Of a stretch of 64,000 bases of DNA, positions 1,159-41,579 are shown piece by piece. The stretch is taken from assembly GCA_029204225.1 (NCBI GenBank), contig CM055095.1, forward strand, positions 48,625,364 to 48,689,363, in the 5' to 3' direction. Positions within the stretch are counted from its first letter, which is position 1; each line of letters starts with the position of its first letter. The stretch is from Diphasiastrum complanatum. Lineage: Eukaryota; Streptophyta; Lycopodiopsida; Lycopodiales; Lycopodiaceae. The position numbers were made by a program, and so were the translations under genes. The notes under the pieces are model-generated. The model had not been told where the DNA came from, did no database searches, and saw nothing but the letters and a program-made list of their open reading frames with translations.

Positions 1159-1174
1159 CACAACTACATATATG
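1159..1174 (+). repeat. Left terminal inverted repeat of the CACTA element
   Basis: CACAACTACATATATG pairs with the reverse complement of 11034-11049, with mismatches at positions 11 and 16. It is followed at once by the GCCACGCG-rich subterminal block. Confidence 0.7.
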
Positions 1175-1179
1175 TGTGT

Positions 1180-1662
1180 TTTGCCACGCGACGCTGCCAT
1201 GCGGACCCGATACTTAGCCGAAATCTTGACATTTTTCTTATGCGTGGCACTGCCACACGTGGCATATCCACGCTAAAACTTTTTCGAGGACCCCTGTCGA
1301 TGAAATCCAGGCTGGAGGAGAGGTCCGGCAAAAGAATTTTAATTCTGCGTGGCACTGCCACGCAAATTTTTTTTAAACTACAACTTGAAATTTGAGCGCC
1401 AAAATATGTCGGCGTGGCACATCCACGCGTGGAAGTGCCACATACGGTTGTTATTTAACCAATTTTCATGTGACATAAATTTTTTTTGATTTGCCACGCG
1501 TGGCAAATCTCCAGAGAAAATTCTAGAGCGATGGCTTTTTTTATTGCCACGCGTGGCAAATTTGTCAAAAAATTTGCCACGCGTGGCAATATTAAAACAT
1601 AATACTTAGAAAAAAACTGTTTTGGAAATTTGCCACGCGTGGCAGTGCCACGCATGGCAAAA
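1180..1662. repeat. Left subterminal array of GCCACGCGTGGC palindromes
   Basis: At least four full or near-full copies of GCCACGCGTGGCA occur (near 1493, 1545, 1576 and 1630). Several half or compound copies such as GCGTGGCACTGCCACGC lie at 1230, 1350 and 1412. They are GC-rich islands in AT-rich spacer. In En/Spm elements such subterminal repeats are binding sites for the TNPA-type protein, and the same role is inferred here. Confidence 0.75.
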
Positions 1663-4145
1663 TTAGTTTGTTATAATTTTTTTTTATATCTATTATGAAT
1701 AATAAGTTAATAAACAACAACTTTATGATTAATTTAAAAGCAAATAAGATTTCTTTTTTTATATTTTGAACAAGTGTATACTTATAATAAAACGTGGACT
1801 AAAAATTGAATGATCATTATCTCAAATTATTATGCTCTAACGAATTAAAGTTATTATTAGTTGAATATCACATGCTATCTTATGTATTTATAGACATTAT
1901 GATGTGTTTCTATATTGAGAAAATTTTTAATCAAAATTTAACAATTTTTTCAATATGGTATTGATGGGTAAAAATATAAGCGTGAGCTTGATATGCATGT
2001 GAAAGGATGCTAAGTACCATACATTTGAGAGCCGTGTGGTAGCTTGTTAAGCTAATTTGTTGATAAAAAAATTGCAATGTTATACACCTTTGTGTGTTTG
2101 CAAAGATCAATGAAAAGTTGAACAATATTGTGGCAAGTTAGTTCACACATCTATTAATATTGATAAATTTTTCTAATTCTAAGTGATTGCGAGATGTGTT
2201 TGAAATGAAACTTTAGAAATGCAACATCGTAGAAAAATATAATAATTTTAATTTGAAAACAATATATATTGACCACAATGGATCATTTTATGACAAAATT
2301 ATTTGTGACATGTACAGACTTTATTCATCGTCGCAAGATTCAAATTCATCAGCCAATACATTTTGCAACTCATCTCCGCTAAGATGATTTTATCATCACT
2401 ATTGAAATCAAAACCTCTCTCAATATTGTCCTCATGCAAAGAATCATTGTTGTCCTCTTCATCATCTGAGTTGTTGGAATCATGAGAATCAATTCTCGGG
2501 TTTTCAATATTTATAAAACTCGAAGGTATATGTACATCTTTATCAGATATACTTGTGTTGTCCAAATTTAGATCTTCCATTTCATTCTCAACATATGCAT
2601 TTTCGAATACATGTCTTGAGCGTGGCCTAATTTGAACAACATACCACCAATCTTTGTTTAGTCGATTTGGTTGAAACAATACCTGCACATTTAGCAATGT
2701 TAGGATTAGATATTTGTCACATTTTAATTCACAATTGCATGCATAAAAAATAAATATACAAACATTACAAATGATTTCATTTTATAGTCACCTGAACAAT
2801 CGCCCAATCTTGGATAGTCATGCATAGTCCACATTAACATCGCACGCAACAAAAATGTTTTGTCTTGAAGTGGATGTGAGATGTCATATGCTTGGACTCC
2901 CTTCCATAGTAGTTCTAGTTTCTCAATCAATGGTGCAAAGTAGATATCCATATTTTTTATTTTATGTTTTTAAGGAATTAGAAGTGCTTGCATGAGATGT
3001 CCTTTTTTGATGCTTAGCCAAGGTGGAATGTTATAGTTGACCAACACCACTGGCCAAGTAGACCACGTGCTTGACATTTTTCCAAAGGGGTTAACCCCGT
3101 CTGTTGCAAGTCCAAATCTTATATTTCTTGTTTCACTTGCGAAACATGGATATTCTTTGTCAATGTGTTTCCATGCAGGAGAGTCTGAGAGTACTCTCAT
3201 GATCTCATCCGAAGAACGATGACTAGCATGCCATTTCACAAGTTTTGCAAGAGACTTGCAACGAAACAATCGTTGCAATCGTGGGATTATTGGAAAGTGT
3301 CGTAACACCTTGCATGGGATAGTGGTCCCTTGTAAGTCATCTCGATATCGAGGAGTATCGCATATAGGACAAGCTTTTAACCCTCGATACTCACCACGAT
3401 ATAAGATGCAATCTTTTGGACAAGCATGATGCAATGTATAGTCCATTCCCATTGCACTCAACATTTTTCGTGCCTCACCTCTTGTCTCTAACATAGTGTT
3501 TCCTTCTGGGAGTAGTTTGCGCAATCACCTGTACATAATGAAATGAATTTTCATAATATAAAATAAAAGATCATTTAGCCGACTAAAACATTTGACTTGA
3601 ACAACACATCTATTAAATTCTTAAAAAAAAATCCTCAATCTTATTTACCCAAATAAGGATGTAACACTTGTATCACTCCATTTATATTTTGCTTGGAGGT
3701 TCAATATAAGCAACGAAGCAGCCAAACGAGATGTCTTTGCTTTAGGATATAATGGTGTGTTTGATTCTTCTCTCAATTTTTTTTCCTCGGCACTAATAAA
3801 TGATTTGCTATCATGTTCAGTGTGTTCTTCCATATCATGATGCTCATAGACGTTATTTATCAAGTTGTTCATGATTTTAACCTCATCTTGAATGCAAAAA
3901 TCATTTTCAGCACTTGATCTTGATTCTGAAGAAGAAGAAGAAGAAGAAGAAGATCGAGGCTAATTTGCTTTTGCACGTTGTTGTTCATCTATTTTCATTA
4001 TGGTTCTCAATCCCATACGCTCACGACATGCAAATCAAACTCCATATCTTAAATTAAGGCATGCAATATGAAATATAAAAAAAAACAATTAATTCACATT
4101 TAATATAACTTGCTCTCACTAAATAGATAAAATGTATTTTGATAT

Positions 4146-4866
4146 TCACAAGGTACATGCTTGAGTTTGGCTCAAAGCCTTTTGTACACATCTTGGAAGA
4201 GGGCGATTGAAGCTATATTTGATGAATAGCTCTTCACCATATTCAATGGGCCTTATCACACATACCATTCCATATGTACTTTTTGAGTTCCTAGAAAAGT
4301 ATTCTTCCTTTCCATTGGTACGTTCCTCGAAATCACAATTAGTTAATGAAGGGTGCCCAATGGAACTATTTATATATGCAACAATATTGCCATATTTTTC
4401 TGGACGCCCATCAATGTACATACGATGTGATTTCGAAACATTCTCTCCTTGCACACATCGCTCTTCCAAAGAACAAGCATTGGCATTCAAGCCATAAACC
4501 TGCATTCTCCATTGGTGACGACATAGAGCATGCCAATCACCCCAATTGTATTGAGGTCCTGCATAAGGCATTAATGTGACAACACTATTCAGGGGGACAT
4601 CAATGCTAGTCAAAGAAAATAAACCCAATCCCGCATTAGGAAAGTGCTCACTTGGCTTGATCGTACATATGACCCCAAAATGAAAATGATGTTTCACATA
4701 ATGGTAGTGGTACTCTATCAGGCCAACATGAATATTTCTTTCTATCAAAGGGCTTAACCAATGCTTCTAGGTAGGGAGGAAGGGGAGACTCAGTCAATGA
4801 ATTTAAAACATTCTTGGATAAGTCAACAGTACGTAAATTTGGTTGTTCATTTTCAAATCTTGTCAA
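4146..4866 (-). CDS. SET-domain (lysine methyltransferase fold) segment inside the CACTA transposase gene
   Basis: In the ORF at 4748-4146 the SET signatures occur in order: GLGLFSL (SAM-binding, residues about 40-47), IDGRPEKYGNIVAYINSS (about 112-129), NCDFEE shortly after, and VIRPIEYGEELFIKYSF near the C-terminus, with the tyrosine that SET enzymes use at the active site. The usual NHSC is replaced by NSSIG, so the domain is divergent. The upstream 4866-4648 frame gives its N-terminal part, joined by a single frameshift in a T/G run near 4670. SET proteins methylate lysines, most often on histones. No separate promoter or start is evident, and it lies between exons of the transposase. It could be a fused domain or a second gene carried by the element. 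Confidence 0.65.
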
Positions 4867-4924
4867 AATGCATCCAAGTCATGTTCTTTTTTTTAATGGA
4901 GTAAATCTAGATGGGATAGGAAGA

Positions 4925-5165
4925 AGAGGAGATTCTACACAAGGTATGTGAGGTGATGTGGGATGGATAGAATTGACGTGAGGTGTCGTGGGATGGATAG
5001 AATCGATGTGAGGTGTCATGAGATAGATAGAATCGATGTGCGGCGACATCGTGGAATGAATAGAATCCATAGTAGAATTTGCGTGAGGTGTTGTGGGATG
5101 GATAGAATCCATGTGAGGTGTCATGTGATGAATAGAATCTAGAATCGATTCTATGGAAAGATCTA
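4925..5165 (-). repeat. 30-bp minisatellite encoding a PHIDSIHPTT decapeptide
   Basis: On the minus strand, units of about 30 bp encode variants of PHIDSIHPTT, such as PHMDSIHPTT, PHVNSIHPTS and PHIDSIYLMT. Around seven or eight units are visible within exon 4 of the transposase gene, just before the SET segment. The repeat keeps the frame, which suggests expansion while the protein was still expressed. It probably forms a flexible linker. Confidence 0.7.
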
Positions 5166-6350
5166 TGTGAGGTGTGGTGGAGTGAGTGACATGCAAAATG
5201 GAAAGATGCATAACTTCCACATCATGAGGTGTGTAGTGACTAGTGACATCATTATGATCATCAACAAGATCTTCGTCTAATGCCAAAGATGATCCAAAAT
5301 CGCTATTTCTTATCTTGTTGATAAGATTGTCAATCGACGTGTTATAAGACATTGACATCAATGTATTATTCTGCAAGAGTGAAACATTACACAAGCATTA
5401 GTTTTATTTTTTTCAAAAAAATCATAAATATGTGTATGATAAGAACAGTACTAAATTGTCAAAATGTACCTCCAAATCCACATCGGGCTCCTCAATGTGC
5501 TTTTCAAACTTCCACAGATGTTGCGCCACTGTTCGTCTTTCTCAAATTTTCAATCCTTTGCATTGTTTGCACTCGCAATATATCTTTTCATTGTACCTCT
5601 GTTGATACTAATTTCATTTTACAATTACAAAAATGATTAGCTTAATGTTACAAGCTAATCTATATGTGTATAAATACAGTCCTAAGTTTTAAACAAATAA
5701 TTATATAGTACCTGCGATTTAGGTCGAGATTGGGCACCAGAAGTTGATGACAATGATGTTCCACTAAGTCTTTGCTCAAGCATTTGTGCTCTTTTTCGTG
5801 ATTTCATTTTGTAATAATATTGCATCTTCTTTAACTTTTTGCTATCTTGTGGAGGCGTCGTGCTTTAAACAATCGTAGAAAAAAAATAAAAAAGTTATAT
5901 TCAACACACAATGCTGCAAATCCAAATGTTAAGTACATAATATCTAATGTACATTTAATAAATATACCTGTTTTGAGACATTTCCTCAGTAGAAGACATA
6001 TTCGCTAATGAATGATTAAATTTTATCTGCAATTTTTTAACAAGAACGTTAATGATATTGACAAAATACACTTGTTAAAATATACAGTTAGAATTGATAT
6101 GTACACACAAATTTAACAAGATCCACAAATATCTTTATCACTAAAACATTTAGATACCTTACCAATGTCAAGTTGCTTGAACGAATATGACATTGTCTAA
6201 TTCATGAAGAAAAGAAGCAGATTCAAGCAAACTATGAAATAGAAGTGTGATTTCTTTTAACTATTTAGAAAACTAAGCAGTAATTAATACATATTTGTCA
6301 TTTTTAAAAAATCAGTAAAATCTTCAAAATCTTCCTTTGCTTAAATCCGT

Positions 6351-6794
6351 TTACAATGCAAGTATCATAATAGAGCAAACATTTTTCTTAGAATGAACAT
6401 CTAAACCACTATCCATTAGTGGCCCAACACCAAGCAAGCTCCTAGTAAGATTAGAAACATAGAGTACATTTGCTATATCCAATCTTTTAGAGGATCCAAG
6501 ACTAGCCTCACTCTCAATCCACCATGTGTCATTGGAGTAGCTCTTGCTTGTTGGTCTAGATGCCATCAAGGATGAATCAACTTCATCCTCATAATCCTCA
6601 ATGGTAAGGTTGTCTTGCATACTCTCATCTTGTGCATTCTTCTTTTTGTATAACTGGGATGCAAAGTGCCTTCCACAAAAGAAACACTTTTGTTTGGCTT
6701 TGTCTTTCTTCTTTCCTTTAGAGTTGAATTCTTGATCATCATCACTTTTGCCATGCTTTGGATTTTCTTCTTGGACTTCCATCATGCAATACAT
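6351..6794 (-). pseudogene. Copia gag/protease fragment
   Basis: The 147-residue frame has a lysine-rich stretch, a broken zinc knuckle (CFFCGRHFAS, lacking the later His and Cys), and DTWWIESEAS where copia proteases have DTWWIDSGAS, so the catalytic Asp and Gly are lost. The end resembles the segment between protease and integrase (VLYVSNLTRSLLGVG). No integrase or reverse transcriptase follows. It is a small relic inserted between the two divergent CACTA genes. Confidence 0.6.
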
Positions 6795-6836
6795 TTAGAT
6801 TGATTGTTTTTTTTTTATCGCTTATCAATGGAATTG

Positions 6837-7560
6837 ACCCCTATCATACGATATAGCTCAAAATTATTGTCTATCACTTGAGATAAGGCATTGAGTGATC
6901 AAGTTAGAGTAATTTCGAGTTTACAACATTCATGTGATTTTGAATGCTGTGCTTACATGTGAGACAACTCAATTTTGGTCCTAATTACTCATCATTGTTC
7001 TTTGAGTGATCATAATTGACCAACATCACATCAGATAGCTCAATCTTGGTGTCTATCAATGTAAATAGCCCCATTTTGGTGTCTCTATCACTCGAGAAAG
7101 TCAGAATTTGCTACCTAACATATGATTTTGTTGCTTATAACTTGACATGGCTCTATCAAGTGACTAGACTCAACAAGTAATATCTTAAGACAACTCAAGG
7201 TCAAACCCCTATTATACGTGATGACTTAAATTTTATGTCTATGCGTGGTTTTCTTGCTTATCACTTGACACGACTCATCAAGTGATCAGACTCAACCAAT
7301 CCCAAGTCTAATATACTAAGATAGCTCATATCACATGAGATAACTAAAATTTGATGTGTATATTTTGGAATACCTCACTTTTGGTGCATATCACTAAAGG
7401 TTTCTCATAAAGTGACCAAATTCGAGAAATTGTGTGCTCATGAAATAGATTAAAGTCGATTCCCATCACTTTAGATAGTTCAAATCTAATGTCCAATACA
7501 AGATCTTGGTCCTTATCACTTGACATAGAAGATCGAGTGACTGAACTTGGTCAATCTATG
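6837..7560. repeat. Diverged short-repeat region (TATCACTTGAGATA-like units)
   Basis: Phrases such as TATCACTTGAGATA, CTCAATTTTGGT and ATCAAGTGACTAGACTCAA recur in varied order and orientation for about 720 bp. Some sit as inverted pairs, for example ATCACTTGACACGACTCATCAAGTGAT. No coding frame is supported. It may be an old minisatellite or element-end remnant. Confidence 0.4.
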
Positions 7561-8403
7561 ATTTGGAACAATAAATTTTGGCCCCTGATAGATTGAATCT
7601 AGTCCTTGGGCAGGATGATTAGTTTGCTGCTTGGAAGGACAAGAGAGCAATAGTTTTATTTTAAGCAGAGATTACGGCAGCAGAGATCTAATATAGGAGC
7701 ATGAGCACTTCAACAGATGGACATTGCAAATGCTCAATTTTTTCTTGTCCCCTATCACCATCTCAAGAAAAACCCATTTTACGTTCTCATTGATCTTCTG
7801 AAATCAAATTCGACTATGATACAATCAATTAGTCATGGCAATCCTGTTAGCATTGCTGGTAGCACTTCTGCACAAGACCACAACCAAGGATTTCACAAAC
7901 AAAGATGTTTGATCCATTCCTCAACGCTAGCAATCATCTAACAACGTCCGCCGAGTTATTTCCTTTCCATCCACTCAACATAAAATCCAAAAACACCCCA
8001 CCACATTCCCCTGCGCTTTTGTCAATTGCTCTCATCTCCATCCATCAACAATCCCTTCACAAAAAAAACCCACCTCCAATCCCTCCTCAGATTCCACCCA
8101 CAGAGATTTTAGATCTCATCAAATCAAAATACAATTAATACTCATTTGTCCTTTTCAAAAAATCATCAAAATCTTCAAAAAAAACATGGTCCTCTTGTAC
8201 CCAAAATATGTCATATCAATCACATGCTTTTGTCCTTAAAAATTCATGCTTAAAAATATGTCATATCACCCACATGCTTTTGTCCTCAGAAAATATTTAT
8301 AAAATTAGAGTCAAATCATTTTTTTAGTTCCATAATTTGTCATTTTGACAAACCACTCGCCATATGACACATTCCAAGCCGTAATCACGGATTTCCATGC
8401 AAA
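7561..8403. other. Central spacer of the CACTA element, no gene recognised
   Basis: Short open frames at 7717-8138 have no recognisable domain. The stretch 8160-8300 contains a direct repeat (ATGTCATATCA...CACATGCTTTTGTCCT twice). It probably holds the 5' flank of the TNP1-like gene. Confidence 0.3.
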
Positions 8404-8463
8404 AAAAATTGCGTAGCAGTGCCACGCGAGGCAAAAAAATGCGTGGCAGAGCCACGTGACACT
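8404..8463. promoter_or_regulatory. Internal copy of the subterminal motif upstream of the TNP1-like gene
   Basis: Two imperfect copies (GCAGTGCCACGCGAGGC and GCGTGGCAGAGCCACGTG) lie in the middle of the transposon, about 0.4 kb before the TNP1-like coding sequence. If the encoded protein binds this motif at the element ends, these copies could let it control its own gene. That role is inferred; only the motif is seen. Confidence 0.4.
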
Positions 8464-8583
8464 TGAAATCTGGAAAATGAATATAAAGGCCCTCATTCAA
8501 TATTTCTCCACGCTTTCTTGTGGATTTTTTGAGGCTCTCAAACTCTCACAGTCAAGCTCTCACTCTCAAGCTTTCAATCTCTC

Positions 8584-8587
<4 letters not shown>

Positions 8588-8625
<38 letters not shown>

Positions 8626-8685
8626 CTCTCACTCTCAATCTTTCATTTCTTTTCACTCCTCGCCACTCTTTTCTCAATCTCTCCA

Positions 8686-8772
<87 letters not shown>
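8588..8772. repeat. Compound (CT)n / (CA)n microsatellites
   Basis: (CT)n at 8588-8622 and (CT)n running into (CA)n at 8691-8772 lie directly upstream of the TNP1-like coding sequence, where they would fall in its leader. Confidence 0.9.
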
Positions 8773-8773
<1 letters not shown>

Positions 8774-8838
8774 CTTTCACTCTCCAATTTCCAATCTCTC
8801 TTTCTCTTTCACACACCAAAGACAAGATACTTGATATA

Positions 8839-9583
8839 TTGTACCGTGAGTTTCCACAACCCAATCAATTTAATAACAAATGGACGAAGACGAGTATGTG
8901 TACGCATATTCGTCATAAGCGCCAATCATTAAGACGATTATGTAGTAAAGGCAAGAAGAGGCCGGGATGGGCATCTAAAAAAGATTGGAAAAGAGTTGTT
9001 TATGAATCCAAGCATCCTAATCCCGAGCGCTTTTAGCAACAAAGAGAGGCAACAAAATCAAGGCTTAATCTTTTAGGCCAATCTCACCTTGGATCGGGAG
9101 GCAAGGCCAATATGCATGCCCAATTTGTAAGCAATTCTCTTTTAGCTAATTGCATTTCATATGTTTATTGTTTATCAATATTTTCTTTGCTTTTTTCTAA
9201 TCATCGATTTGTGTTGATGTAGGTTGAAGATTATGGGCGTAAGTATACAAATGCCGAGTACAATATTGATATCGCCATGGCTATAGTGCCTTGGTTGATC
9301 ATCTTGCGGCACAAGGCGTACATCCAAGGGTAAATTTTTGTTACATAATTTGTATATCTCTTATTTTTTATATACAATTTTTATTTCATTTCAATTTATG
9401 ATGTGTTTGGCTAATAATTATTAATTTGTTTTGTGAATGTGTATGTAGAGGGCATCCGCTTCCTTTGTGGAAGAAAGTACGGGAGGAAACCAAGGAGAAG
9501 AAGGGAATGAAGATGAAGGGGACGAAGACGAAGGACAAGATTCAGCTTCGGACAACGATGAGGGAGAAGATAGCGAAGACTAA
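8839..9583 (+). pseudogene. TNP1/Transposase_24-like gene of the CACTA element
   Basis: Three exons are visible: up to 9126 (donor TTT|GTAAGC), 9223-9329 (acceptor GTTGATGTAG), and 9449-9583 (acceptor TATGTAG, stop TAA at 9581-9583). Exon 1 encodes a basic stretch, PGWASKKDWKRVVYESKHP, and a glycine/serine phrase LGSGGKA like that of plant Transposase_24 proteins. The last exon encodes a strongly acidic tail. The same exon layout and similar residues recur in the second CACTA relic at 48217-49250, which supports the gene model. An in-frame TAG at 9034-9036 and a frameshift in exon 2 (near 9280) break this copy. Its likely role was binding the terminal repeats. Confidence 0.6.
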
Positions 9584-9869
9584 GAAGCCTACTATTACTT
9601 CTTAGATTTGATGTATTTCTAGTATTTACAAAAGTAGAAAAAATGCTTTTTAGAGTATTAGTATCAATGCTCTTTTCATGAATTAGATGCTAATATGGAC
9701 ACTTTTTTGAATTATGAATATAAACTTTTGTATTTGATCATCTCTATCTCATTATATATGGAATGATTGTTTATTGTTTATGTTTTTCTATTTCATCTTG
9801 TATAAATTTGTTGTAAATATATAAAAACAATAAAAAACAAACAAAACATCAATTTAAGATGATAAAAAC

Positions 9870-10486
<617 letters not shown>

Positions 10487-10575
10487 CCCAAAGCTCTTCT
10501 AATCTATTTGGAAATGCAGTCGAGGCCCCCACTTTTTTCATTTTGCGGGTTTTTTTTTTGTTGAAATATTTATGC

Positions 10576-10960
10576 ATGGCACTGCCACGCGTGGCAGTGC
10601 CACGCCCTAAAAAAAATTGCAAAAAAGTTTGCCACGCGTGGAAGAATTTCACTTGCTGGAAAAATTTGCCACGCGTGGCAAACTTCAAAATTTTTTTCAG
10701 AATTTTTGCCACGCGTGGCAAAATTTAACATTATGTAAAAAAAATGCCACGCGTGGCAATTTTCCAGATTTCTTAAGCGTGGCACTACCACGCGTGGCAA
10801 TGCCACGCGGATTTAAAATTTGAATCGCTCCGAGCCCCCTCCCGCCAAATCGGTTCGGAGGAAGAGCCGGTGATGGAAAACTTAGGCGACGTGGCAGTGC
10901 CACATGTGGCAGTGCCACACGTTCATTGCCACGCAGTTTGCCACGCAATTGCCACGGACA
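10576..10960. repeat. Right subterminal array of GCCACGCGTGGC palindromes
   Basis: Copies of the same palindrome as at the left end occur near 10584, 10629, 10665, 10707, 10745 and 10790, followed by looser GTGGCAGTGCCAC forms to about 10960. The match of this motif at both ends supports the element boundaries independently of the short inverted repeats. Confidence 0.75.
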
Positions 10961-11033
10961 TTGCCGCGCGAGGGTCGTCGGGTCAAATCTGGTCCCCATC
11001 TTATGTGAGTGGCAATGGGCGTGGCAATGGGCC

Positions 11034-11049
11034 TATATTTGTAGTTGTG
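11034..11049 (-). repeat. Right terminal inverted repeat of the CACTA element
   Basis: On the minus strand this reads CACAACTACAAATATA and pairs with the left end at 1159. The exon acceptor of the interrupted host gene starts only 23 bp further right. Confidence 0.7.
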
Positions 11050-11072
11050 CAAGTTGCTTATCTTTCACGCAG

Positions 11073-37246: not shown

Positions 37247-37324
37247 GAGACTGATCACTTAAGAGAGCTTTTGAGGGTAGACGTTGACACAATTCTTGAG
37301 CAACTTTAGCAACCTACCTATCAG

Positions 37325-37596
37325 TTAGAATTAAAATTAGAATCACTGTGTTACTGTATTGTGGGTTCTATCAGTGGATAAGGATCAGTTGGCCTCGCCA
37401 CGAGGCAAGTCGACGGGACACGCATCCCGCCAACGGCAACCTGGGTCATGCATGGGTTGCCTGAGTGAACAACTATATGTACAGTGTAATTTCATTTTGA
37501 GAAGTACAGTTGCTATGTGAGCGTGTTGAGGAGAGTGATTTTCTGTCTGTGTTACTGTGTAGCATGATCTGTGTTCCTGTGCAAAGCAAATTCTAA
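37325..37596 (+). repeat. LTR A, copy 1
   Basis: 272 bp, TTAGAATT...AATTCTAA, followed by the primer site at 37599-37610. It includes a GC-rich island around 37400-37440 that recurs in all copies. Confidence 0.8.
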
Positions 37597-37905
37597 GTTG
37601 GTATTAGAGCCGTACAGGGAGTGTACACAGTACAGTGTCGCCGTTGAAGAGCGCTTCGGGAGAACTGTCTTCTGAGACTAAACACATTGAGATTCAATAT
37701 CACTTCATACGTGAGAGGTTGCTGAGTCGTGAAATTCATGTTGTTCATTGTAGCATAGAAGAACAACTAGCTGATATTTTCACTAAGCCACTTACTGGAG
37801 AAAAGTTTGATAAGTTTAGATCAAAACTTTATGTACTTAAAGTTTGTTGACTTTAAAGCTATGTATATGACTGTATAAAAAGTGACTCTACTCTAAGGGA
37901 GAGAG

Positions 37906-38177
37906 TTACAATTAAAGTTAGAATCACTGTGTTACTGTACTGTGGGTCCTATCAGTGGATAAGGATCAGTTGGCCTCGCCACGAGGCAAGTCGACGGGAC
38001 ACGCGTCCCGCCAACGGCAACCTGGGTCATGCATGGGTTGTCTGAGTGAACAACTATATGTACAGTGTAATTTCATTTTGAGAAGTACAGTTGCTATGTG
38101 AGCTTGCTGAGGAGAGTGATTTTCTGTCTGTGTTATTGTGTAGCATGATCTGTGTTCCTGTGCAAAGCAAATTCTAA
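37906..38177 (+). repeat. LTR A, copy 2
   Basis: Same length and sequence as copy 1 with a few changes, e.g. TTACAATT at the start. Confidence 0.8.
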
Positions 38178-38900
38178 GTCTATCCACACTAGAGACACCC
38201 AACAGTATGACAACTCTAGAAAAACGAAAGCTACGTCTACAGGCCCTAAAGTTCACTTTAATAGGGGGCACACTGTATAGACGAGGTGTAGAAGGGTTGT
38301 ATTGAAGATGCATCACTCCTGAAGAAGCCAAATCTAAGGGCAGGTTACTGGTGGCCGACACTATTCCAAGATGCCCATTTACATGCCCGGAACTGCGACA
38401 CCTGTCAACAAGTTGACAAGACGGATAATAGGGTGCGATTGTTAGTTCCAATACAGGCATGTCTCTCCTTTGAAAAATGGGCATCGACTTCGTTGGCCCA
38501 ATACACCCAACTTCATCTAGCCGAAAACATTGTATCATAGTGGCCACTGACTATTTCACAAAGTGGGCTGAGGCACGGGCTGTGGCCAAAGAGAATGCAA
38601 AAGAAACCGCCTGGTTCTTACTAGAACAGGTGATGGGCCGGTTCGGTACACCCAGAGAACTCATCTTTGACAGGGGTGTACCCATTTCCTAAACAAAACT
38701 ATCAAGGCTTTGACCGATCAGTTGACAATCAAGCACCAGAAAAGCACACCCTACCACCCACAAGCCAACGGTCAGGCTGAAAGCACGAACAAACAACTGG
38801 TAGGAATCCTAAGGAAAACCGTATCAGACCGACAAAGGGATTGGGACAAAAAACTGTACTCGACATTGTGGGCATATAATGTCACCTATAAGACCAGTAC
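38178..38900 (+). pseudogene. Gypsy integrase, first copy, cut by an LTR
   Basis: Continues the gypsy element after the miniature copia. The integrase core from 38477 reads MGIDFVGPIHPTS, YFTKWAEARAV, FGTPRELIFDRG and TPYHPQANGQAEST, with a frameshift at about 38678. It stops at 38900, where a TGTGAAAGATT-led LTR begins. Confidence 0.8.
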
Positions 38901-39552
38901 TGTGAAAGATTCAACTAGTTTCATCACATTTTGCAATATTTCCATATTTGGCATATTGAGGCCAAAACTTGTTTTAGACTTAGAGGTTGACTTTTCAAAG
39001 TTCATTAGTCTAAATTTCATTTGAATAAACACTTTTTTTGAAAGTGTGGGAAAGATAGAATGCGAGTTTGAGTAGATTCAATTTGAATAAGTTGGGTACA
39101 TTGAATCTAGACCCAAAATTGGTAGGGTTAGCATTTTGGTGGGAAAGCCAAGTGGCCAAATAGGGTTTGGACCTGTTATAAAAGGATGTAACTCGTGGAG
39201 AGAGTCATCTTCTCTCTTCTCTATCTCATTTCATGCTTATACATGGTTCTCTTGGGTTCTACTATCCATTGGTGCACTATCTTGGTGATTGCTTGCAATT
39301 CTATGTGTAGAATGATCTATATTTGCTATTTTTGGATCCACACGTGTGAAATACAGTAGCTTGCTGGTTTTGTACGGACAGAAACAGTACATAATCATTT
39401 CATGCAAGTTTGATCAAGTTCTATTAGTGTTTGCATCTCAAATTGTGTGTAGATGCTGATTTTTCTACATTGGTGAAATTGGTAGTGTATTTCTCTTTCT
39501 AACCAAAGATCATTCAAGTAGATTGGATCTTAAGGATCTGAAATCTTTCACA
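38901..39552 (+). repeat. LTR B (652 bp) of a copia-type element, followed by a primer site
   Basis: Starts TGTGAAAGATT and ends AATCTTTCACA, an 11-bp perfect inverted terminus. TGGTATCAGAGC follows at 39553-39564. Its partner LTR is not found; the interior leads into RNase H and an LTR of a different family. Confidence 0.8.
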
Positions 39553-39564
39553 TGGTATCAGAGC

Positions 39565-40084
39565 TTGTGTTTCAGGTTATGAAGGAGGAAATCAGATCTA
39601 TCAATGATTTGGTGAAGATATCAAGTCTAGAGCATGCTAGAGAGGATTCTACACCAAAATCGGATTTTTTGCTTTTGTAGATTGGATCTTTTGTAGATCA
39701 AAACACTAAATAGGTCAATATACTTGTTCAATTCCATTTTTTGAATTCACATGCTGGATTTGGCCGATTTTTGGATCATTGGTTCAGCCTAAGTGGTGGC
39801 TTATAGATTGCATATCAAATTTTTAGCATTTGCATGTAGATTTGGAATAGTCAATTTTTTGTGATTTTGTCAAAACCCTAATTTTGATTGGATCTCTAGA
39901 TAGTGAGGTTGCTGGACTTCATTTGAGTGTGTTTCAATCTTAGGAAGTGGCAAAAGTCATTAGATTGAGGATAGATCATAGGTTGGTCAAGATTCCATGA
40001 TTCTATGTGTTGATTTGCTTGGATAAGTGCTAGAAGAGAATTTGTGAGATAGTTTCAAATCTTGGTGATTTCTTTTGAAAGCAT
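39565..40084. other. Leader sequence after LTR B, no gene
   Basis: AT-rich untranslated leader between the primer site and the copia RNase H fragment. No coding potential is seen. Confidence 0.4.
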
Positions 40085-40441
40085 TTGTTGTTGTTCAAAG
40101 GAGTGCTTTGTGCATTGAAGCAGATTGAAAGAGAAGATCAGGTCATTGCTACATGGTTGAGACAAATCTTGGAAGAAATTGGCATGAAGCAGAAAAATCC
40201 CACGACTTTACATAGCGACAGTCAGAGTGGCATTCAGCTAGCAAAGAATCCAGTGTTCTATGCGAGAGCTAAACACATTGAGATTCAATATCACTTCATA
40301 CGTGAGAGGTTGCTGAGTCGTGAAATTCATGTTGTTCATTGTAGCACAGAAGAACAACTAGCTGATATTTTCACTAAGCCACTTACTGGAGAAAAGTTTG
40401 ATAAGTTTAGATCAAAACTTTCTGTACTTAAAGTTTGTTGA
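40085..40441 (+). pseudogene. Copia RNase H C-terminal fragment
   Basis: 118 residues: ATWLRQILEEIGMK, TLHSDSQSGIQLAKNP, ARAKHIEIQYHFIRERL and LADIFTKPL, the end of a copia polyprotein. It is a longer copy of the tail in the miniature element at 37.7 kb and is followed by the polypurine tract and LTR A. Confidence 0.85.
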
Positions 40442-40496
40442 CTTTAAAGCTATGTATATGACTGTATAAAAAGTGACTCTACTCTAAGGGAGAGAG

Positions 40497-40714
40497 TTAG
40501 AATTAAAGTTAGAATCACTGTGTTACTGTACTATGGGTCCTATCAATGGATAAGGATCAGTTGGCCTCACCACGAGGCAAGTCGACGGGACACGCGTCCC
40601 GCCAACGGCAACCTGGGTCATGCATGGGTTGCCTGAGTGAACAACTATATGTACAGTGTAATTTCATTTTGAGAAGTACAGTTGCTATGTAAGCTTGCTG
40701 AGGAGAGTGATTTT
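40497..40714 (+). repeat. LTR A, copy 3, truncated
   Basis: Starts TTAGAATT after AGGGAGAGAG and matches LTR A until GATTTTCT, where it joins gypsy integrase sequence directly (shared TCT at the join). Confidence 0.8.
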
Positions 40715-41579
40715 CTCTCCTTTGAAAAATGGGCATCGACTTCGTTGGCCCAATACACCCAACTTCATCTAGCCGAAAACATTATATCATAGTGGCCACT
40801 GACTATTTCACAAAGTGGGCTGAGGCACGGGCTGTGGCCAAAGACAATGCAAAAGAAACCGTCTGGTTCTTACTAGAACAGGTGATAGGCCGGTTCGGTA
40901 CACCCAGAGAACTCATCTTTGATAGGGGTACCCATTTCCTAAACAAAACTATCAAGGCTTTGACCGATCAGTTGACAATCAAGCACCGGAAAAGCACACC
41001 CTACCACCCACAAGCCAATGGTCAGGCTGAAAGCACGAACAAACAACTGGTAGGAATCCTAAGGAAAACCGTATCAGACCGACAAAGGGATTGGGACAAA
41101 AAACTGTACTCGGCATTGTGGGCATATAATGTCACCTATAAGACCAATACCAACCACACACCCTTTTTTCTAGTGTATGGCCAAGAATGTGTACTGCTAA
41201 TAGAAATAGAGCTCCCATCCTTGCGGTTTGCCATGAACCATGACCTAGGAGAGAAAGAACAATACAGCACCGATTGGACACTTTACAAGACCTGGACGAG
41301 CACCGAATAGCTGTCCTAAATCACCAAGAAACCCACAAAAGACACATAAAGGAGATTCATGATAGGAACATGCGTGATTACCAGTTCAGACAGGGGCAGT
41401 TAGTGTTGTTCTACGACGCTAGACATGAGCTGATGCCTCAAAAGTTGGGGCCACGTTGGAATGGTCCATATGTAATAGTGAAACAGTATGAAAATAACAC
41501 GGTTAAGTTGGCAGAGTTAAACGGTGAAATTTTTAAGCACCGAACCAACATAAACAAGATAAAAGCTTACCGTAGTTAA
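40714..41579 (+). pseudogene. Gypsy integrase, second and complete copy
   Basis: Repeats 38459-38900 at very high identity and continues through the integrase core (HRKSTPYHPQANGQAEST) into the C-terminal GPY/F-like region (GPRWNGPYVIVKQYENN). One frameshift near 41275 separates the two open frames (40729-41310 and 41274-41579). It ends KIKAYRS and stop. Confidence 0.85.

Follow-up and report, generated by a model that had tools for sequence, protein, structure and literature searches.

A lineage of CACTA/EnSpm-type elements in Diphasiastrum complanatum carries a standing SET exon in its transposase gene. We regard it as probable on balance, judging from sequence, that this exon serves as an alternative terminal exon and that the transposase-associated domain encoded upstream would target the SET product to the element's own repeats. 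The element was found on the minus strand of a stretch of 64,000 nucleotides (the window), in which a first-pass annotation had described a SET domain lodged between the exon for the transposase-associated domain and the exons for the TNP2 core. This position was borne out, with the associated exon, the SET exon and the TNP2 exons (PF02992 matches) all on one strand. The proposal that the element lineage bears its own SET domain is upheld by TNP2-gene sequence downstream of SET at 33 of 35 places, by the presence of SET in four subfamilies and by dN/dS values of 0.08–0.18 between them, but the fusion of SET to TNP2, which had been offered as one form of this proposal, is not.

Structure and classification of the element

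The features of the window copy are collected in Table 1. Its termini agree with the 5'-CAC...GTG-3' form described for the CACTA/EnSpm class in the available portion of PMC12730594; in place of CACTA, the pentamer from which the class takes its name, the element has CACAA, which was treated as a variant and not as class-defining. The motif of the subterminal repeats, a feature of CACTA/EnSpm elements, occurs four times near either end, and a TNP2-type transposase (Transposase_21, PF02992) is matched in two parts, with profile positions 1–205 covered piecewise by the window copy and copy L043. No Harbinger transposase was found among the nine window ORFs scanned with Pfam, TNP2 being the sole transposase match. 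The inverted arms (1158–1189 and 11019–11050) are 78% complementary. The 3' end at 1159 is backed by a three-way comparison of the window with copies L040 and L042, in which the three pairings had 68–71 of 74 bases alike inside the end as against 12–17 of 50 outside. The 5' end at 11049 was placed from the window copy alone, and the trinucleotides flanking this single copy with both ends, CAG and CAA, are alike at two of three bases and would make at best an imperfect 3-bp target site duplication.

Table 1. Coordinates of the element in the window and of the features within it
Feature	Position	Strand	Basis
Whole CACTA/EnSpm-type element, ~9.9 kb, degenerate copy	1159..11049	-	TIR CACAACTACA...TGTAGTTGTG
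5' subterminal repeats, GCCACGCGTGGC and variants	10564..10918	.	sequence
Nested Copia fragment, gag/protease-like, outside the finding	6351..6794	-	ORF; weak Pfam matches only
Predicted first coding exon, ATG at 5999 (MSSTEEMSQN)	5968..6026	-	read from sequence, splice consensus
Predicted exon, basic region (TTPPQDSKKLKKMQYYYKMKSRKRAQMLEQ...)	5712..5862	-	splice sites
Transposase-associated-domain-like exon	5470..5598	-	donor GAG/GTACAT, phase 0; PF13963 in homologous exons
SET exon	4146..5370	-	acceptor TTGCAG/AATAAT, phase 0; own stop TGA 4148-4146
In-frame minisatellite region in SET exon	4907..5221	-	repeats of DSI[HY]PTTPHI
Pfam match to SET, profile positions 45-104 (of 105) (GNI.AYINSS...TNC...GEELFIKY)	4215..4436	-	PF00856
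Remnant of next TNP2-gene exon (DYELSSSS... elsewhere; start deleted in window)	3648..4025	-	tblastn of L042 exon
TNP2 core exon, part 1	2970..3524	-	PF02992, E=2.8e-31
TNP2 core exon, part 2	2724..2969	-	PF02992, E=1.3e-13
C-terminal tail of transposase gene	2299..2781	-	by eye equals tail L039:1740-2582(-)
3' subterminal repeats, motif as at 5' end (GCCACGCGTGGC)	1232..1662	.	sequence

The window copy is dead, with damage in the associated exon, the SET exon and the TNP2 part. The associated exon has an in-frame stop. The stop and frameshift reported earlier for SET are real, being a nonsense codon at 4881–4879 after ...LKKRT and a frame change near 4680. A further in-frame stop separates the two parts of the TNP2 core, the remainder of which is missing through a deletion. 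The ORF taken as the tail of the gene had no Pfam match in the window; the earlier part of its counterpart, L039:1740-2582(-), matches DUF4216 below the cut-off (E=7.9e-5).

The transposase-associated domain is a putative DNA-binding domain. Its assignment to the exon upstream of SET in the first-pass annotation gained partial backing, in that similarity to PF13963 is present in the homologous exons of copies L044 (25.3 bits, E=1.7e-5, slightly below the cut-off of 27.7) and L042 (15.5 bits, E=0.019), with both scores falling below the cut-off. The interval 5370–4146 proved to be an exact exon running from acceptor to stop, the splice acceptor (CTCTTGCAG) ending at 5371. The minisatellite within this exon varies in length among elements and, by eye, is missing from the two subfamily B copies read, L043 and L044.

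In several copies of subfamily A, Copia gag/pol fragments were also observed 5' of the first exon (window 6351-6794, L040:996-1817 and, flipped, L042 3-695), the fragment in L040 being a longer relative of that in the window; it is as if an old nested insertion had been amplified along with the element.

Copies in the host genome

The host genome (1.74 Gb, 5,176 contigs) was searched with the SET ORF. All 150 scored sequences of 2,839 candidates matched, at 69–100% identity, and with about 40 of a fourth type the SET relatives number about 190 among the matches listed. Flanks were read in 36 sequences, selected by SET similarity or open-frame length and not by TNP2, which represent 33 distinct places including the window (L039–L041 duplicate L010, L015 and L032, and there are several near-identical pairs on small contigs). 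Downstream of SET and in its orientation, the next TNP2-gene exon was present in 35 of the 36, a TNP2 exon in 34, and one or the other in every sequence. The associated exon was present upstream in 26 and was not found in L039, L040 or L043, each with about 3.5 kb upstream examined. Over all distinct SET places with flanks, TNP2-gene sequence followed on the SET strand in 33 of 35, so that SET is not a one-off capture. The two exceptions, L069 and L070, were added for subfamily C; in both, the TNP2 gene breaks off after the start of the next exon and the element 3' end follows, and these two look like internal deletions.

The association was also compared from the side of the transposase, using 150 of the 151 TNP2 matches and 138 of the 146 SET matches, with the eight top host-type SET matches (L001–L008) excluded. 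For 53 of the 150 listed TNP2 places, a listed SET lay no more than 8 kb upstream in the same orientation, at 785–922 bp in 35 cases, compared with 1 place with a listed SET downstream and 4 with one on the opposite strand. Among the first 70 of a further set of listed places, the corresponding numbers were 16, 0 and 0. When 20 of the 97 TNP2 places lacking a listed SET were drawn at random, SET sequence was present within 2.3 kb at 13, in one case inverted and in some rearranged. At the other 7 of these 20 no SET was found within 2.3 kb, which counts against the main reading. One of the seven, L051, looks like an internal deletion, in that its associated exon is preserved and the beginning of the SET exon adjoins the TNP2-gene exon. 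Three TNP2 places from other families were picked by the TNP2 profile: L074 has SET, L073 has none within about 3.4 kb upstream of TNP2, and L075 has an inserted Copia element upstream that makes it uninformative on SET.

Many copies of the element are damaged; open SET frames of 347–424 codons survive in copies including L040, L042 and L044. An interval of 1.8 Mb on contig C1 (48.5–50.3 Mb, including L069 and L070) holds 26 of the 150 listed TNP2 places and 16 of the 138 SET matches, and L069 has two element 3' ends 4.3 kb apart; subfamily C seems to make a dense array there. Several copies recur at equal or almost equal score on a small contig (for example C1449, C1333, C2069 or C4042) and on a chromosome-size contig, which suggests unpurged haplotigs in the assembly.

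Subfamilies and selection

The copies fall into four subfamilies (A–D) with one element order and SET identities from about 80% down to 55%. Subfamily A includes the window and subfamily B is about 75% identical. Subfamily C, with many copies on contig C1, is represented by L064, which has SET and the next exon. Subfamily D (L074) was picked via the TNP2 profile and not via SET, and has the order associated exon, DFGSSLALDEDLVDD, SET, TNP2. About 40 SET places are of the D type, at least 73% identical to L074, after which there is a gap down to 61%. Among the D-like TNP2 places, 8 of 19 have a D-like SET 773–881 bp upstream and none has one on the opposite strand; the 11 of 19 without a listed SET count against the main reading.

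For the estimates of selection, SET copies with gaps or with fewer than 168 aligned residues were dropped, leaving 39, and stop codons were skipped; the group comparisons used 15 of these, hand-picked (11 A, 3 B, 1 C). Between subfamilies the SET dN/dS was 0.083 for A–B, where dS is about 1.5 and near saturation, and 0.179 for A–C and 0.156 for B–C, both of which rest on one C copy. The higher values within subfamilies, 0.549 in A and 0.413 in B, reflect the decay of recent copies. SET and TNP2 diverged in step: A–B dN is 0.12–0.15 for SET and 0.16–0.18 for TNP2 at similar dS, and A–D identity is 0.553–0.56 for SET and 0.547–0.557 for TNP2. Purifying selection and this divergence in step imply that SET is an ancient acquisition, older than the separation of the subfamilies, which selection has since maintained and which has been passed on together with the transposase.

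The SET domain

The domain call of the first-pass annotation was confirmed by a profile match, the window ORF 4146-4766 on the minus strand giving PF00856 with E=1.4e-6 and 29.1 bits against a cut-off of 22.4. The landmarks on which that call had been based (GLGLFSL, GNIVAYINSS, NC and GEELFIKY) all lie within this ORF. The cut-off was passed by at least one copy in each of the four subfamilies (A, 29.1–33.9; B, 26.6–28.4; C, 33.1; D, 23.5 bits), which rules out a chance match.

In an alignment with SUVH-type SET domains from the same host genome, IDG...GNI.AYINSS...TNC falls onto IDA...GNV.RFINHSC.PN and GEELFIKYSF onto TELTYDYGY, so that the catalytic Asn and Tyr positions are retained. The SAM-binding Gly motif (GLG) was matched by eye, the alignment with the host domains not having placed it. 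Asn, Tyr and GLG are invariant across six A and B copies; with Y.GP and IDG...NI they are conserved in A–C, and those within reach of the fragment are also conserved in D. The canonical NHSC is absent, INSS...TNC standing in place of NHSC.PN, with Ser for His and with the Cys also lost. This motif varies among SET proteins, for example in PRDM9, and the canonical form was therefore not treated as required for SET membership. No pre- or post-SET cysteine clusters were seen in the region aligned with the host domains, which, like the Ser in place of His, counts against the main reading. A search of solved structures by sequence found no SET relative, NCBIfam gave nothing relevant, and none of 32 pattern matches in viral contigs was confirmed. 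A single-sequence AlphaFold prediction was unusable (pLDDT 30.5).

SET enzymes are able to methylate non-histone proteins, and the loss of the NHSC histidine and cysteine could point to a product that modifies proteins encoded by the element itself, or that serves as a reader or partner without catalysis, instead of acting as a histone methyltransferase. We consider this unlikely, however, given that the catalytic Asn and Tyr positions and the motifs conserved with them have been kept in A–C (and in the covered part of D), and that SET is under purifying selection.

Gene model

We infer, as the economical reading, that SET forms an alternative terminal exon and that one gene would give two proteins with a common associated domain, because the phases fit both from the associated exon to SET and from the associated exon to TNP2, and because the SET exon has its own stop. 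The associated-exon donor (GT) and the SET-exon acceptor are both of phase 0 in subfamilies A, B and D, in agreement with the earlier observation that the exon upstream of SET joins in phase, and the acceptor of the next TNP2 exon is of phase 0 in these three and also in C, for which the sequence examined does not extend to where the SET exon begins. The stop at the end of the SET exon is present in 35 of 36 A and B sequences, the exception being L023 through a one-base insertion; the C and D copies that were read also end the exon in a stop, each at a position of its own. In the D copy L074 (~2591-2605, flipped), AATAAA lies directly at the SET stop, which fits an alternative 3' end; by eye it was not seen near the stop in the A and B stretches read.

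The SET exon could alternatively be a separate gene that simply lies within the transposase gene and has a promoter and a start codon to itself. A second protein is possible in CACTA elements and the stop of the SET exon would suit such a gene, but no start codon was seen by eye at a conserved place at the 5' end of the exon in A, B and D, the splice acceptor and its phase are conserved in the same three subfamilies, and the conserved DFGSSLALDEDLVDD stretch upstream of SET is in the same frame. This arrangement is therefore improbable compared with an alternative terminal exon spliced to the associated exon.

A true fusion in the manner of SETMAR, with the associated domain, SET and TNP2 in one polypeptide, would be in keeping with the location of SET between two parts of a transposase gene whose exons share a strand, and in phase with the exon upstream. 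It is nevertheless very improbable, and the fusion option of the first-pass annotation is rejected. Translation would end at the SET stop in nearly all A and B sequences and in C and D. The donors common to A and B at the end of the SET exon (GTGAAT/GTGAAG) are of phase 2 and would misread the next exon, since that exon needs phase 0. The sole strong phase-0 donor noticed, GTATGT inside SET in A, is replaced by GTCTGT in B and by GTTTGT in C, and the sequence past it is itself under purifying selection (A–C dN/dS 0.163; A–B dS is saturated). Across the subfamilies compared, no strong conserved donor was found that would link the SET exon to the phase-0 TNP2 acceptor. A single reading frame of SET and transposase, as in SETMAR, is thus absent here: SET stops and the phases do not fit.

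That the window copy took up a host SET fragment in a one-off capture or by chance, as its degenerate state might have suggested, has a negligible probability in view of the four subfamilies, the roughly 190 listed SET places, the selection on SET and its co-divergence with TNP2.

Proposed function

With the SET exon as an alternative terminal exon, use of the exon would give a protein of associated domain plus SET, and skipping it would join the associated domain to the TNP2 core as an ordinary transposase. Through the associated domain, the SET enzyme would then be recruited to the subterminal repeats of the element itself and could methylate lysines there, either on histones or on the transposase; this methylation might help the element to stay expressed or might control its dose. 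The SET product would thus be catalytic and might act against silencing. As a tentative extension, for which our confidence is lower than for the gene model and targeting together, the element may encode a self-targeted chromatin writer, in which an alternatively spliced protein of DNA-binding domain and SET would mark the element ends, either with a permissive mark or by blocking a repressive one, and which would have outlasted the split into four subfamilies.

Plants silence transposons via histone and DNA methylation. If the proposal is true, a histone-methyltransferase-type domain that has been selected for and multiplied to high copy number with a transposon would be direct evidence of elements fighting or steering silencing by writing chromatin marks, and this would go beyond mere blocking of DNA methylation. 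The family offers a testable system with respect to the marking of its own members, the target lysine and the change in silencing upon loss of the SET exon. It also means that transposons can inflate counts of SET-domain genes in plant genomes.

Comparison with known systems

In maize En/Spm, TnpA and TnpD are two products of one CACTA gene formed by alternative splicing, as proposed here from splice phases; TnpA is not known to carry a SET domain. SETMAR of primates joins SET to a mariner transposase and arose as one host gene in a fusion that happened once. It resembles the plant element in having SET beside a DNA-transposase domain, but in the plant SET belongs to a mobile element and a SET–TNP2 fusion is unsupported.

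Among oomycetes, SET genes have been reported in Phytophthora from DNA transposons of the HarbingerS and MuDR families (Kojima and Jurka 2014, as cited in PMC12730594). As described in the available portion of that source, these are also DNA transposon lineages in which a gene for a SET histone methyltransferase is a fixed component, a likeness drawn from the description and not from SET sequence; they differ in belonging to the Harbinger and MuDR superfamilies and in having oomycete hosts, whereas the plant element is of the CACTA/EnSpm type and has SET among the exons of its transposase gene. The same portion of PMC12730594 describes fungal EnSpm and other DNA transposons that encode TET/JBP, for which an escape from silencing has been proposed. 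These elements likewise combine an EnSpm-type transposon with an enzyme that edits epigenetic marks (an assignment made from the domain in the plant element), but they are fungal and carry a 5mC dioxygenase instead of SET. VANC of the Arabidopsis VANDAL elements directs hypomethylation through motif recognition (PMC13317346, in the part available; also listed on VANC anti-silencing are PMC5735166 and PMC10398659), and so provides a plant DNA transposon encoding a sequence-specific protein against the silencing of its own family, a role that would be shared by the SET product. VANC differs in that VANDAL elements are MULEs and in that the description in PMC13317346, as far as available, mentions no SET domain.

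No report of a SET domain in a plant CACTA element was found in the accessible parts of the open literature, a scope that excludes most subscription papers and Repbase, and the whole word SET is absent from the available text of a review from 2026 on how plant elements capture genes (PMC13317346). Transposons bearing chromatin enzymes are already known and, as far as searched, the superfamily, the kingdom and the gene layout are new here.

Elsewhere in the window, positions 37323–41150 contain direct repeats of 220–450 bp with 95–98% identity.
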